A stretch of 64,000 bases of DNA from Qipengyuania gaetbuli. Lineage in GTDB: Bacteria; Pseudomonadota; Alphaproteobacteria; Sphingomonadales; Sphingomonadaceae. The DNA is taken from NCBI RefSeq assembly GCF_020524765.1, contig NZ_JAIVLR010000001.1, positions 1,240,001 to 1,304,000 on the forward strand, read 5' to 3'. Made by a program: the position numbers and the translations under genes. Positions 6,088 to 42,180 of the stretch are shown here, piece by piece; position 1 is the first letter of the stretch; the number at the start of each line of letters is the position of its first letter. Under the pieces are notes generated by a model. It was not told the DNA's origin. It ran no database searches and saw only the letters and a list, made by a program, of their open reading frames with translations.

Positions 6088-6164
<77 letters not shown>

Positions 6165-37893: not shown

Positions 37894-39371
37894 CCAACGC
37901 TTCCTTCAAGCGAGATCGCCAGCAGCTTCTGCGCTTCCACGGCGAATTCCATCGGCAGTTCCTTGAGCACGTCCTTGGCGAAGCCGTTGACGATCAGCGC
38001 CACCGCCTCTTCCTCGTCCAGCCCGCGCTGCATGGCGTAGAACAGCTGGTCGTCGGAAATCTTGCTGGTGGTCGCCTCGTGCTCGATCTGCGCGCTCGGG
38101 TTCTTCACCTCGATGTAGGGCACGGTGTGCGCGCCGCACTGGTCGCCCAGCAGCAGGCTGTCGCACTGGGTGAAATTGCGCACGCCGTCGGCATTGGCCG
38201 CCACCGCGACCCGGCCACGATAGGTGTTGTTCGACTTGCCCGCCGAAATGCCCTTGGAGATGATGGTTGAACGACTTCCACGGCCGTTGTGGATCATCTT
38301 CGTGCCGGTATCGGCCTGCTGGTAATTGTTCGTCACCGCGACCGAGTAGAATTCGCCCACGCTGTCTTCGCCATTGAGCACACAGCTGGGATATTTCCAT
38401 GTCACCGCGCTGCCGGTCTCGACCTGCGTCCAGCTGATCTTGGACCGCGCGCCTTGGCACAGGCCACGCTTGGTGACGAAATTGTAGATCCCGCCCTTGC
38501 CGTTCTCGTCGCCCGGATACCAGTTCTGGACGGTCGAGTACTTGATCTCCGCATCTTCCAGCGCGACCAGTTCGACCACGGCTGCGTGGAGCTGGTTTTC
38601 ATCGCGCATCGGCGCGGTGCAGCCTTCCAGGTAGCTGACGTAGCTGCCCTTTTCGGCGATGATCAGCGTGCGTTCGAACTGGCCGGTGTTCTCTGCATTG
38701 ATGCGGAAATAGGTCGACAGTTCCATCGGGCAGCGAACGCCCTCGGGAATGTAGACGAAGGTGCCGTCCGAAAAGACCGCGCAATTGAGCGTCGCGAAGA
38801 AGTTGTCCTTCTGCGGCACCACCTTGCCGAGCCACTTCTTCACCAGCTCCGGATATTCGCGGATCGCCTCGCTGATCGAGAGGAAGATGACGCCCGCCTT
38901 CTTCAGCTCCTCGCGGAAGGTGGTGGCGACCGACACGCTGTCGAACACGGCATCGACCGCGACCTTGCGCGCGCCTTCGACCCCGGCGAGCACTTCCTGC
39001 TCCGCCACGGGAATGCCGAGCTTGTCGTAGACCGCCTTGATCTCGGGATCGAGCTCGTCAAGGCTGGCGAGCTTTTCCTTCTTCTTGGGCGCGGCGTAGT
39101 AATAGGCGTCCTGGTAATCGATCGCCGGATATCCGAGCTTGGCCCAGTCGGGCTCTTCCATGGTCTGCCATAGGCGGAAGGCCTTGAGGCGCCATTCGAG
39201 CATCCATTCCGGCTCGTTCTTCTTGGCCGAAATGAAGCGCACCGTGTCTTCGGTGAGGCCCTTTTCGGCGAATTCGGTCTCGATGTCCGCCGACCAGCCG
39301 TGTTCGTACTCGGCCGCCTTGGCAGCAGCTTCCCTCGCCTCGCGGTCCTGGATGTCTACGTCTTCGCTCAC
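37890..39371 (-). CDS. sufB: Fe-S scaffold subunit SufB
   Basis: 493 residues from the GTG at 39371, which overlaps the sufR stop (GTGA); the longer upstream frame lies within sufR and is not used. It has [58 protein letters not shown], the core [26 protein letters not shown], and [41 protein letters not shown] with the cysteines proposed to hold the nascent cluster. Length is typical. SufB is the main scaffold of the SufBC2D complex. Confidence 0.96.
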
Positions 39372-39778
39372 GCGATTTCCTTTTCCTGCGCCAGCTGAAC
39401 CAGGCTGATATTCGCCAGGGCGCCGCGCAAAGCTTCGTTCACCAACGGCCAGTGGGGCCGCACGCGGCATTCGTGATCGACCGAGCAATCTGTTCCTTCG
39501 ACACAGGCCGTCAGCGCGATCGGGCCCTCGACCGCCTCGACGATATCTGCGAGGCTGATCGCGGCTGCCGGACGGGCCAGCTGCAGTCCACCGCCGGCCC
39601 CGCGCACCGAGCGCAGCAGGCCTGCGCCGACCAGCTTGCTGACCAGCTTCTGCACCGTCGGGGCAGGCAGGCCGGTTTCAGCCGCAAGGTCGGACGCACT
39701 GACCCTGCCCCCGCCGCAATGGCGGGCTGCCTGGCTCATCGTGACGACAGCGTAATCTGCAAGGTTCGAAAGGCGCAT
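39368..39778 (-). CDS. Rrf2-family SUF regulator (IscR/SufR type)
   Basis: 136 residues, ATG start. The winged helix is [19 protein letters not shown] followed by [24 protein letters not shown] and [13 protein letters not shown]. Three cysteines, Cys92, Cys98 and Cys104 ([14 protein letters not shown]), have the IscR spacing for an Fe-S cluster, so it probably senses cluster status. It is the first gene of the SUF operon and should autoregulate through the palindrome just upstream (39785-39807). Confidence 0.92.
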
Positions 39779-39784
39779 GGTCTA

Positions 39785-39807
39785 AATCGGACGAATCCGC
39801 TCCGATT
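39785..39807 (-). promoter_or_regulatory. Palindromic operator candidate of the SUF operon
   Basis: AATCGGA (39785-39791) and TCCGATT (39801-39807) are perfect complements with a 9-base centre. The site begins 7 bp before the sufR start, where an Rrf2 dimer would block initiation. Confidence 0.6.
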
Positions 39808-39877
39808 AGCCACGTATGAGCGCAAACCCGCGGTTTCAACGGATTTCCGCTTGTTGCGAGTCGTTAGCAGTTAGCCC

Positions 39878-40795
39878 CTAGACGGGCTTGCGGCCCAGTT
39901 GCCGGTCCTCGCTTCCGCCGAACAGGTCGACCGAGGAATAACCGTCGGGACCGAGCATGTCGCGAACCGGGGTCCCGTCGTTCTTTTCGATGCGCCGCGG
40001 GGTTTTCCCGGTGAAGGCGCGTATCTCCTTGATCATATGCGCCTGGTCGTAAAACGCGTCGCGGATCTCGGCCTCGATCTCGAGCGGGAGTTCGGGCAGC
40101 GAGAGCAAGGTCGCCGCGCGCACCGCGCGATAGCGCCGGATCAGGCGGACGGGTGGCTGGCCGAAGAAACGCGTCACCAGCCGCTGCACTTGCCGTTCGG
40201 AATAGGGCAGCTTGTCCTGCAGCACCTCGATCTCGGGCTTGAAGGAGGAGGACAGCCATTCCAGCGTCGTGTCGATAACCTGGACGTGGCGCACCGACAG
40301 CTCGCTCAGCCCGTCGCGCACGACCGCTGCCATTGCGTCCAGTGCCCCGCGTTCGTCGATCTCTCCGCTCCGCAGGGCATCTGGCAGGGCGGCGAGGCGC
40401 GCCAGCAGGTCGGGCGACATGGCCGTCGCCGGATCGAGGAATGCATCGTGGTTCTCGTTGACCGGCAGCCCAGTGAACGCCGCCCAGCCGCGAAAATTGA
40501 GCGACACGCCGAGCATCAGCATCGGGCCATAGATCTTGAACGGGCGCGCTTTTACCAGCGGACCCATCAGCGTGACTTCGGAAGTCCGGCCCACCACGCC
40601 CTTGTCGAAGGGCATGTCAGCATACCCGCTCGGCACGACGGCCAGCTGTCCCGAATAGGCAGGCAGCCAGTCTTCGTATCCGGCCTCCGAGGCGCGGAAA
40701 ATATACAGCGAATTGCAATAAGGCCTGAGGTCAGCCGGCGCTTCGATGAACTCGAAGCTGAAGGGCAGCCCGCCTTGTTCTTCGATCTTGCCCAA
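39878..40795 (-). CDS. AraC-family transcriptional regulator
   Basis: 305 residues. The only in-frame start after the stop at 40796-40798 without losing the N-terminus is TTG 40795, so the true start is uncertain. The N-terminal ~170 residues form a ligand domain with YCNSLYIFRASEAGYEDWLPAYSG split over two strands; the C-terminus has the double helix-turn-helix ending DAFYDQAHMIKEIRAFTGKTPRRIEKN. Its layout matches the regulator at 19627-20469, though the two are not close copies. Targets are unknown. A possible promoter (TTGCCA, 17 bases, TACAGA on the minus strand) lies at 40836-40864. Confidence 0.8.
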   Translation of the reverse strand: MGKIEEQGGLPFSFEFIEAPADLRPYCNSLYIFRASEAGYEDWLPAYSGQLAVVPSGYADMPFDKGVVGRTSEVTLMGPLVKARPFKIYGPMLMLGVSLNFRGWAAFTGLPVNENHDAFLDPATAMSPDLLARLAALPDALRSGEIDERGALDAMAAVVRDGLSELSVRHVQVIDTTLEWLSSSFKPEIEVLQDKLPYSERQVQRLVTRFFGQPPVRLIRRYRAVRAATLLSLPELPLEIEAEIRDAFYDQAHMIKEIRAFTGKTPRRIEKNDGTPVRDMLGPDGYSSVDLFGGSEDRQLGRKPV

Positions 40796-40929: not shown

Positions 40930-40959
40930 AAAAAAAGGGCGGCTCGTGAAGAGCCGCCC
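40930..40959 (-). terminator. Strong intrinsic terminator, minus strand
   Basis: Read on the minus strand: GGGCGGCTC (40959-40951), loop TTCAC, GAGCCGCCC (40945-40937), then seven T (40936-40930). The stem is perfect over 9 bp. It faces away from pyrD and has no protein-coding gene upstream on its strand. Confidence 0.88.
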
Positions 40960-41036
40960 TCTATAGTTGAGAACTCGTTGCAAAGCTGCTCCGAGCCCTT
41001 CGGGTCGCAGGGGTTAGATAAGACGAGTCGGGCAAA
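40930..41036 (-). ncRNA. Candidate small RNA with intrinsic terminator
   Basis: On the minus strand, TACAAT (41047-41042) could be a -10 box giving a start near 41036. The transcript would contain GACTCGT (41028-41022) paired with ACGAGTT (40976-40970), with CTGC/GCAG and CCC-GAA-GGG pairs inside, and ends in a strong terminator. No open frame of useful length and no minus-strand gene exists between 40960 and pyrD. No good -35 is seen. It could instead be the attenuated leader of the AraC gene 134 bp downstream. The rest of 40796-41151 holds no gene I can support. Confidence 0.5.
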
Positions 41037-41151
41037 TTTTGATTGTATGCATGCGACACAGCCGCCCCTTCCCCTTCATTTTGGCGGAAATTTACAAAGG
41101 GAAGCAGGCCCCGCTCGACACCGAAACCGTGCTGGGCCATATCGCCGCGCC

Positions 41152-42180
41152 ATGCTGTTCGACCTTGCCCGGCCCGCCCTCTTCGCCCTCGACCCGGAGC
41201 GCGCTCACCGCCTTACGGTAGCCGCCCTGAAGGTCTCGCCGGTGCGTGCGGCAGGCAAGGCAGGTACGCTGGCCACAAGCGTCTCGGGTATCGACTTTCC
41301 CAACCCGTTGGGCATGGCGGCAGGATTCGACAAAGATGCCGAAGTACCCGACCAACTGCTTGGGCTCGGCTTCGGATTCGCCGAAGTCGGCTCGATTACC
41401 CCGCGCCCGCAGGCCGGCAATCCCAAGCCTCGCCTCTTCCGCCTCGTGAAAGACCGCGCGGTCATCAACCGGATGGGGTTCAACAATGGCGGGGCACAGG
41501 CGGCTCTTGCCCGGCTCGAGGCCCGCAAGGGACGCCCCGGCGTGCTCGGCATCAATATCGGCGCGAACAAGGACAGCGAGGACCGGATCGCCGATTACGC
41601 CGAAATGACGCGGCTGATGGCACCTCATGCAACCTATCTGGCCGTCAATATCTCCAGCCCGAACACGCCGGGCCTGCGCGCACTGCAGGACGAGGGTGCG
41701 CTTGTCTCCTTGCTCGATGCGGTGCTCGACGCACGCGGGAAGGACGGTCCGCCCGTATTCCTCAAGGTCGCACCCGATCTGGAGCCGGCGGATATCGATG
41801 CGATTTCCCGTATCGCTCTCGACAAGGAACTGGGGGCCCTGATCGTCTCGAACACCACCATTTCGCGCCCCGCGCTCCGTTCGAGCCATGCTGACGAGAC
41901 AGGCGGCCTGTCGGGCGCACCCTTGCGCAATCTGGCCCAGCAAAGGGTGGCGGACTTCCGCAAGGCAACCGGCGGCCAGCTTCCGCTTGTCGGCGTCGGC
42001 GGGATTGCCACGGCCGAAGACGCCTGGGCGCGCATCCGGGCAGGTGCCAGCCTGGTCCAGCTTTACAGCGCCATGGTCTATGAAGGACCGGGCCTGCCCC
42101 GGCGCATCCTGCGCGGTCTTGAACGCCTTATGCGCCGCGACGGATTTTCCTCGATTGCGGAGGCGGTCGGAACCGCATAG
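41152..42180 (+). CDS. pyrD: Dihydroorotate dehydrogenase (quinone), class 2
   Basis: 342 residues from ATG 41152 (MLFDLARPALFALDPERAH is the standard start; the longer frame includes intergenic sequence). It oxidises dihydroorotate to orotate at the inner membrane, passing electrons to quinone. Class 2 features are the N-terminal amphipathic helices, GMAAGFDKDAEVP, GSITPRPQ, NRMGFNN, INIGANKDSED, VNISSPNTPGLRALQ (catalytic Ser), LKVAPDL, SNTTISRP, LSGAPL and VGVGGI for FMN. The active site is complete. The gamma-glutamyltransferase gene follows after 11 bp. Confidence 0.96.
   Translation: MLFDLARPALFALDPERAHRLTVAALKVSPVRAAGKAGTLATSVSGIDFPNPLGMAAGFDKDAEVPDQLLGLGFGFAEVGSITPRPQAGNPKPRLFRLVKDRAVINRMGFNNGGAQAALARLEARKGRPGVLGINIGANKDSEDRIADYAEMTRLMAPHATYLAVNISSPNTPGLRALQDEGALVSLLDAVLDARGKDGPPVFLKVAPDLEPADIDAISRIALDKELGALIVSNTTISRPALRSSHADETGGLSGAPLRNLAQQRVADFRKATGGQLPLVGVGGIATAEDAWARIRAGASLVQLYSAMVYEGPGLPRRILRGLERLMRRDGFSSIAEAVGTA

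Follow-up and report, generated by a model that had tools for sequence, protein, structure and literature searches.

The window, that is, the whole stretch of 64,000 nucleotides from Qipengyuania gaetbuli that was analyzed, contains two divergent units. On the plus strand lies pyrD (41154..42180; PF01180, 1.3e-82; start codon chosen by us), while the minus strand carries an AraC-family gene with an HTH_18 domain (39878..40795; PF12833, 1.1e-9), the gene of an Rrf2-family, sufR-like regulator (39368..39778; PF02082, 4.1e-32) and then sufB (PF01458, 1.2e-79). Between pyrD and the AraC-family gene we located a terminator stem-loop on the minus strand (40934..40962), GGGCGGCTC-TTCAC-GAGCCGCCC, with a perfect 9-bp G+C stem that extends to 12 pairs (40962 to 40934) once the flanking A-U pairs are counted. 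It runs into a U7 tail (40930..40936, minus strand; seven T at 40936 to 40930). A preliminary reading of the same DNA, made from the sequence alone (the sequence-only reading), had proposed that this stem and the seven U end a minus-strand transcript with no gene upstream on that strand. Both observations were confirmed: the stem and the tail lie at 40962-40930, no recognizable gene precedes the unit on the minus strand, where the neighbor is pyrD diverging on the plus strand, and a long minus-strand frame antisense to pyrD gave no Pfam match. A crude pattern scan found four terminator-like sites in 3 kb compared with 2.2 ± 1.5 in shuffled sequences, and the terminator at 40934..40962 had the most pairs of the four; by the pattern scan alone it is not exceptional. 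The fold of the 114-nt minus strand reached z = –3.56, with 1 of 200 shuffles being equally good. Decisive for the reality of the predicted minus-strand unit is its conservation.

In a BLASTN search with the 146-nt region, 55 of the 59 same-genus genomes gave a best match at E ≤ 1e-5 (counted by hand), and G004, G009, G039 and G048 gave weaker ones. For wider searches we used two covariance models, R1, trained on 30 same-genus copies, and the broader R2. In the family sample, R1 matched 217 of 298 genomes at E ≤ 0.01, many of the weak matches probably being terminators. At ≥40 bits, 131 matches remained in 117 of the 298 genomes, 12 of which held two or more (hand count). In the order sample, R1 gave only weak matches outside the family; the best of them, at 34.9 bits, was rejected as a terminator in AT-rich sequence. 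R2 matched 3 of 289 genomes of the class sample, all from the same family, in a search that left at least one family genome (G188) without a match and whose stricter filters can lose weak matches. Beyond the family, no convincing homologue was found in the order and class samples. Phage contigs yielded 14 pattern matches, which we took as chance (best 21 bits), and plasmids yielded none. An exact scan of GTDB species genomes for the core-and-operator pattern described below found at least 119 stretches. Among the matches listed were erythrobacters and other sphingomonads, a few metagenome-assembled genomes whose names stop at class or phylum level, and a record titled 'Actinobacteria bacterium' (L207), which we took for a mislabelled metagenome-assembled genome. 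Records carrying the element are assigned to Erythrobacter, Qipengyuania, Novosphingobium, Blastomonas, Sphingobium and Sphingomonas. Qipengyuania belongs to the Erythrobacteraceae, Sphingomonadales, in the NCBI taxonomy; GTDB merges the Erythrobacteraceae into the Sphingomonadaceae.

For comparative analysis, 180 distinct promoter-bearing homologues were aligned on the motif GCGACC, and 102 of them, with spacers less than 60% identical, were treated as diverged. To enter this set, a copy needed a TGTCG-like element at a permitted spacer (20–48); the pool of the set comprises 119 loci among the matches listed of the core-and-operator scan (spacer 22–45). The invariance of the GCGACC core and of the operator is therefore partly built in, since the homologues were collected by these motifs, while the TA, GANTC and spacer-length features discussed below were unselected apart from the permitted spacer range. 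A structural alignment, A3, was obtained from 75 representatives (<80% identical), which were reduced to 60 and supplemented with the window copy to give 61 rows; rows that an internal T run had shortened were left out, as were a few more.

The conserved block starts at G 41008, and the 5' end of the transcript thus very probably lies near this position, as judged from the alignment. The predicted RNA of about 79 nt (40930..41008, minus strand) begins with GCGACCCGAAGGG, includes GCGACCCGAAGGGCTCGG, and continues through a hairpin into the terminator with its seven U. The length of 105 nt proposed in the sequence-only reading is consequently probably wrong. R2 scored the stretch 41008-40930 with 85.1 bits, the window copy being part of its training set, and the 79-nt RNA has a predicted fold of –37.7 kcal/mol, in which GCGACCCGA is unpaired and is followed by hairpin 1 (8 + 3 bp), a 7-nt linker, the terminator and the U tail. 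Across the A3 rows, the predicted length varied between 75 and 91 nt, and a 3' hairpin of 9–18 pairs was present in 61/61 rows, so that the terminator also passed the conservation check suggested at the outset. The 5' segment GCGACCCGAAGGG (40996..41008, minus strand), the presumed seed, carries 1.8–2 bits per position in the 102 diverged homologues, a value that is high in part because the homologues were collected by that motif. Its first 9 nt are mostly unpaired, with at least six unpaired positions in 52 of 61 single-sequence folds of A3.

Hairpin 1 (8 bp + 3 bp) lies at 40970..40999 on the minus strand. In A3, 94.7% of its cells were paired among the 61 diverged members, both sides had changed in 6 of 11 pairs (a number reached by 1 of 500 shuffles), and the covariation score of 0.177 was reached by none of 500 shuffles (0.118 ± 0.007). 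Controls slid by 1–3 columns were 30–45% paired and scored ≤0.061, with up to five pairs changed on both sides. The lower stem was less regular, its top pair being unpaired in 17 of 61 rows. A covariance check in relatives had been recommended beforehand, and hairpin 1 does covary, scoring above 500/500 shuffles; a conserved structure with covariation, as looked for in trans-encoded sRNAs, is thus present. The 'closing 7-bp stem' GACUCGU:ACGAGUU of the earlier reading fared differently: all of its pairs were present in just 8 of 30 genus homologues, the window's among them. Taken as a whole, the alignments argue strongly for a conserved sRNA at 41008 to 40930.

Upstream of the presumed start, an element of the form TGTCGN7MCAAT precedes the sRNA in the 180 distinct homologues. 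In the window it reads TGTCGCATGCATACAAT (41042..41058, minus strand) and occupies positions –50 to –34, centered at –42. The distance from TGTCGN7MCAAN to GCGACC was 32 nt in 119, 33 nt in 60 and 34 nt in 1 of the 180 homologues. The intervening sequence was nearly random save for two features, a TA at –12/–13 and a GANTC. TA occurred at –12 or –13 in 172/180 homologues and in 95/102 diverged ones; elsewhere between –4 and –29, no offset had it in more than 9/102 diverged homologues. A constant spacer length combined with a lost sequence is what would be expected of a promoter spacer rather than of a transcribed leader. We assigned the presumed –10 element to TATCTA (TANNNN; 41015..41020, minus strand), followed by the 6-nt discriminator ACCCCT and +1 at G 41008. 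Zymomonas mobilis, which belongs to the same order (Sphingomonadales) as the window's genome, uses sigma-A promoters described in the text cited as TTGNNN / TANNNN with no conserved base at –7 and a discriminator that is most often 6 bp (PMC7566282). TATCTA and the 6-nt discriminator fit this consensus as given there. Further support comes from a paralogue in the window's own genome (G000:C1:1536489-1536589; L087:1490-1590, plus strand; 36.5 bits with R1), which lacks TGTCGN7ACAAT and keeps TATCAG-CGACTT-GCGACCCGAAGGG with a 6-nt discriminator. Together with the constant spacer and the TA, this copy led us to place the start at 41008. Hence TACAAT would probably be part of an operator and TATCTA the –10 element, and we infer that TGTCGCATGCATACAAT serves as an operator or activator site in place of a –35 box. 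The unit would thereby combine its own intergenic promoter with a rho-independent terminator, as is typical of trans-encoded sRNAs. A conserved TACAAT at such loci also carries a warning, namely that it need not be a –10 box.

The second spacer feature is represented in the window by GACTC (41025..41029, minus strand; –21 to –17), a GANTC and hence a CcrM methylation motif. A GANTC was present in the spacers of 93/180 homologues and 42/102 diverged ones, compared with 4.1% of 26-mers drawn at random from these loci. The motif is about ten times more common there than in random stretches and is the commonest word of the form XYNZW in the spacer. The middle base was A in 41, C in 36, T in 16 and G in 2 cases, and the first-base positions clustered at –21/–20 and –28. 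In 37/180 homologues a GANTC was found inside the operator itself, and 62/180 had one in neither operator nor spacer. The window's genome encodes GcrA (82 bits) and a protein with a RAMA domain (77 bits), a domain that we take to mark CcrM. For GcrA/CcrM-regulated promoters, a GANTC within –40..+40 of the start site has been used as a criterion in the passage cited (PMC7987155). The GACTC at –21 lies within this range of the predicted start site in the window. Based on these motifs, a CcrM/GcrA input to the sRNA promoter appears possible, if slightly short of probable.

The operator is also found elsewhere. In the window's own genome, TGTCGNNTNCATACAAT matched exactly only at the sRNA operator; two copies with one mismatch lie at mucR, and four more sites have two mismatches. 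The two mucR copies stand back to back upstream of the gene (L227; G000:C1 around 375550-375587), which encodes a MucR protein (PF05443, 2.6e-49) and has a fur-type gene downstream of it. Among 30 mucR loci, one of which (L253) runs into its contig end, the 260 nt preceding mucR contained the operator in 26 at ≤3 mismatches and in 24 at ≤2, and the motif was absent in 4; the corresponding control gave 196 of 3000 random 260-nt windows from the other loci, the majority of which carry the operator of the sRNA itself. Allowing one mismatch, the operator pattern produced 100 matches in 23 of 25 genus genomes, compared with 4 for the reversed control. In eight of 32 examined operator loci (eight genomes: L302, L307, L316, L322, L324, L325, L326 and L337), the operator lies about 216 nt upstream of one and the same gene. 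The first 220 residues of the one such gene scanned gave a DUF5930 match; we presume that the gene belongs with the M23 peptidases. At some of these loci the operator is followed by a stretch resembling TAAACCACNNTTTA(A), a putative CtrA-type site. Two of the 32 loci have in common a gene with bacterial SH3 domains (one scanned), and several other matches fell inside or ahead of frames that look unrelated. A further operator copy was located 158–206 nt downstream of the sRNA's own, just past the terminator, in six genomes (G002, G003, G005, G018, G021 and G023).

The motif common to the mucR promoter points to MucR itself as a candidate for the operator-binding protein. In Caulobacter, MucR is described in the text cited as occluding GANTCs from CcrM methylation and repressing nearby promoters (PMC5172544). 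Sinorhizobium MucR, on the other hand, needs AT-richness and no consensus according to the excerpt cited (PMC10572780), which speaks against MucR as the binder of a specific 17-mer. We thus regard MucR as a tentative candidate that is somewhat less probable than the CcrM/GcrA input. A promoter that often carries a methylation site and has a motif in common with a regulator gene suggests that the RNA may link gene regulation with the cell cycle. The 62/180 homologues free of GANTC and the four mucR loci lacking the motif count against such a circuit.

The surroundings of the homologues showed both conserved synteny and independent copies. A divergent pyrD was found at 151 of the 174 loci whose upstream sequence extended for 700 nt or more. 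Downstream, 93/180 loci have an AraC gene (in 85 of them within 250 nt), and 50/180 have sufR but no araC (49 within 400 nt). In the window, inspection by eye revealed TTGAAA-17-TACGTG and the palindrome AATCGGAGCGGATTCGTCCGATT just upstream of sufR (39779-39840, minus strand). At 12 araC-less loci, TTGNNN (mostly TTGAAA), TANNNN and ATCGGA..TCCGAT follow the terminator with varying quality, again by eye. The palindrome AATCGGAGCGGATTCGTCCGATT could possibly represent a SufR operator. On the other side of the unit, upstream of the sRNA operator at 41080-41103, lies TGTAAATTTCCGCCAAAAT, which reads ATTTTGGCGGAAATTTACA towards pyrD; it is kept in about half of 30 genus loci and is possibly part of the pyrD promoter. 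The own-genome paralogue mentioned above is flanked by a groEL-type (chaperonin) gene and the gene of a LuxR-type regulator. Furthermore, 9/180 loci had no pyrD, araC, suf or GGT match. Seven of these (L069, L091, L124, L161, L180, L206 and L224; L180 is titled Erythrobacter litoralis) have a common upstream sequence, about GCGTAYCTATTCGGGCC, and form, together with L089, a second paralogue group with other neighbors. Independence from the pyrD–suf surroundings is thus evident from copies at other loci, namely these 9/180 and the groEL-side paralogue.

These data allowed us to weigh other explanations of the locus. If a sigma-70 start about 7 nt after TACAAT (41047-41042) were used, as the sequence-only reading had suggested in taking TACAAT for the –10 box, the product would be an sRNA of 105–110 nt whose first 30 nt or so form a variable leader. 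TACAAT is strongly conserved and resembles a –10 box, and the GACUCGU:ACGAGUU stem is able to form fully in the 8/30 genus rows noted above, the window's included. The would-be leader, however, measures 32–34 nt in 180/180 homologues, where 20–48 was allowed, and yet is variable in sequence, and the own-genome paralogue without TACAAT keeps the downstream –10 element and the 5' end. With TA fixed at –12/–13 as described, TACAAT was probably misassigned and this start appears unlikely. The unit might also be viewed as a cis-acting leader or attenuator of the araC–sufR–suf unit in which alternative folding controls read-through; the attenuated leader of the AraC gene that had been offered beside the free sRNA is of this type. 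AraC or, in its absence, sufR is indeed next on the same strand at the loci counted above. An attenuator would call for a dependent downstream gene following in all homologues, and such a gene was not found: araC is missing in many of them, copies exist away from suf, and sufR has a promoter-like sequence and the palindrome-like ATCGGA..TCCGAT of its own beyond the terminator. In addition, the hairpin arm upstream stays constant although the terminators differ in sequence (by eye), and thus no conserved antiterminator is apparent. The AraC-leader proposal is therefore unsupported, AraC lying downstream in barely more than half of the homologues and some copies lying elsewhere, and we consider a cis leader of the whole unit improbable.

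A third possibility is that a mere terminator and promoter insulate pyrD from the suf side and that the transcript is non-functional. A strong terminator between two divergent units would suit this role, and no target was found (see below), but insulation would not require the degree of conservation seen in the covarying hairpin and the 13-nt 5' end, and both recur at other loci, which makes insulation very unlikely. As to known families, the best Rfam match of a 401-base search was suhB (RF00519) with 26.2 bits and E 0.002, raising the question of a divergent suhB/MmgR (alpha-r8) sRNA. This score falls below the gathering score of 41 and stems mainly from the terminator (by eye), the suhB consensus CUCCCU differs from the sRNA seed, and a true suhB with 55.2 bits is present elsewhere in the genome (C1:1522929-1523007; L038). 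Membership was rejected because of the score under the RF00519 threshold and the genuine suhB, and a divergent suhB is the most improbable of these explanations. By comparison, the free sRNA of the earlier reading is well supported by the promoter pattern, the terminator, the covarying hairpin and the copies elsewhere.

With respect to function, the sRNA is probably trans-acting. A GU-tolerant 14-nt search for seed complements in eight genomes showed no excess over the reversed control (37 matches compared with 55), and the 37 include antisense strands of sRNA genes. Duplex energies with the leaders of pyrD, araC, sufR, mucR and gcrA were all inside the null distribution from 1777 ATG sites; the best, gcrA, reached –20.5, the 5% quantile being –20.9. 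The repeated placement beside pyrD and suf could point to a cis role.

The interpretation that we favor, and hold to be probable on sequence grounds, is a free-standing, trans-acting sRNA of about 79 nt made from a promoter wired to the CcrM/GcrA/MucR cell-cycle circuit. RNA polymerase with sigma-70 would start at about 41008 on the minus strand, at a promoter that has no TTG –35 box and would need a protein binding near –42. The cell cycle would gate the promoter through GcrA at the methylated GANTC and possibly through MucR. The RNA would be stabilized by its terminator, probably with the help of Hfq, and its 5' GCGACCCGAA segment would base-pair with mRNAs and thereby block or destabilize them. 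It is more doubtful, although conceivable, that the RNA represents a family-wide sphingomonad cell-cycle sRNA, an RNA arm of the circuit gated by CcrM methylation/GcrA and a regulator; the regulator may be MucR or another protein that also controls mucR and the DUF5930-domain gene. If expressed, the sRNA would belong to the core riboregulators of a large group of bacteria. As the 5' seed, the promoter and the operator are sharply defined, the start site, the regulator and the methylation dependence are directly testable.

Rfam had been named at the outset as a database to consult. The window copy belongs to no Rfam 15 family at the gathering score, and nine loci holding other members gave 0 gathering-level matches. 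A tRNA gene at 6091-6164 (minus strand) is the only gathering-level match in the window. In open-access text, CGACCCGAAGGG or GACCCGAAGGGC occurred in one unrelated paper on peroxidase crystallography, and no description of the sRNA was recognized in the open-access literature searched on sphingomonad, Erythrobacter, Sphingopyxis and Zymomonas sRNAs. Being absent from Rfam 15 and from the open-access text searched, the candidate is rated as a new sRNA family, though of a known kind, whose promoter is unusual and can be tested. It may already have been detected without a name, for example among the Zymomonas Zms RNAs or by dRNA-seq of Sphingopyxis TFA.

Several known sRNAs offer points of comparison. 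The suhB/MmgR RNA (RF00519) is likewise a short trans-encoded alphaproteobacterial sRNA with a GC-rich terminator and is present in the same genome; in Sphingopyxis granuli TFA it is given, in the text cited, as a 61-nt Hfq-dependent sRNA (PMC6563040). It differs in its locus and in its conserved motif, and the window's sRNA stays below the RF00519 gathering score. GsrN, as far as the source is cited here, resembles our candidate in being an alphaproteobacterial sRNA whose C-rich 5' region is conserved and exposed (PMC5869019). The same passages describe GsrN as sigma-EcfG-dependent and report no apparent gsrN-like gene in Erythrobacter litoralis (PMC5869019), while the present sRNA has a promoter of the type TGTCGN7ACAAT / TANNNN and the neighbors pyrD, araC and suf. 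Links to the cell cycle are known from EcpR1 of Sinorhizobium meliloti, a cell-cycle-connected sRNA (PMC4414408), and from CcnA of Caulobacter, which is cell-cycle-linked and, in the text cited, modulates CtrA and GcrA (PMC8959179). Both are likened to our sRNA by description alone, and its own link to the cell cycle is suggested by promoter motifs. In Caulobacter, the promoters of cell-cycle ncRNAs were screened for DnaA, GcrA, CtrA and CcrM sites (PMC5988900). The common idea is control through promoter CcrM sites, which in the portion cited is a prediction there as well, and the likeness is one of description. A further comparison is with the Caulobacter promoters whose GANTCs are occluded by MucR (PMC5172544, text as cited): there, as at the putative sRNA promoter, a GANTC stands beside a site linked to MucR, which in our case is a putative assignment based on the motif.
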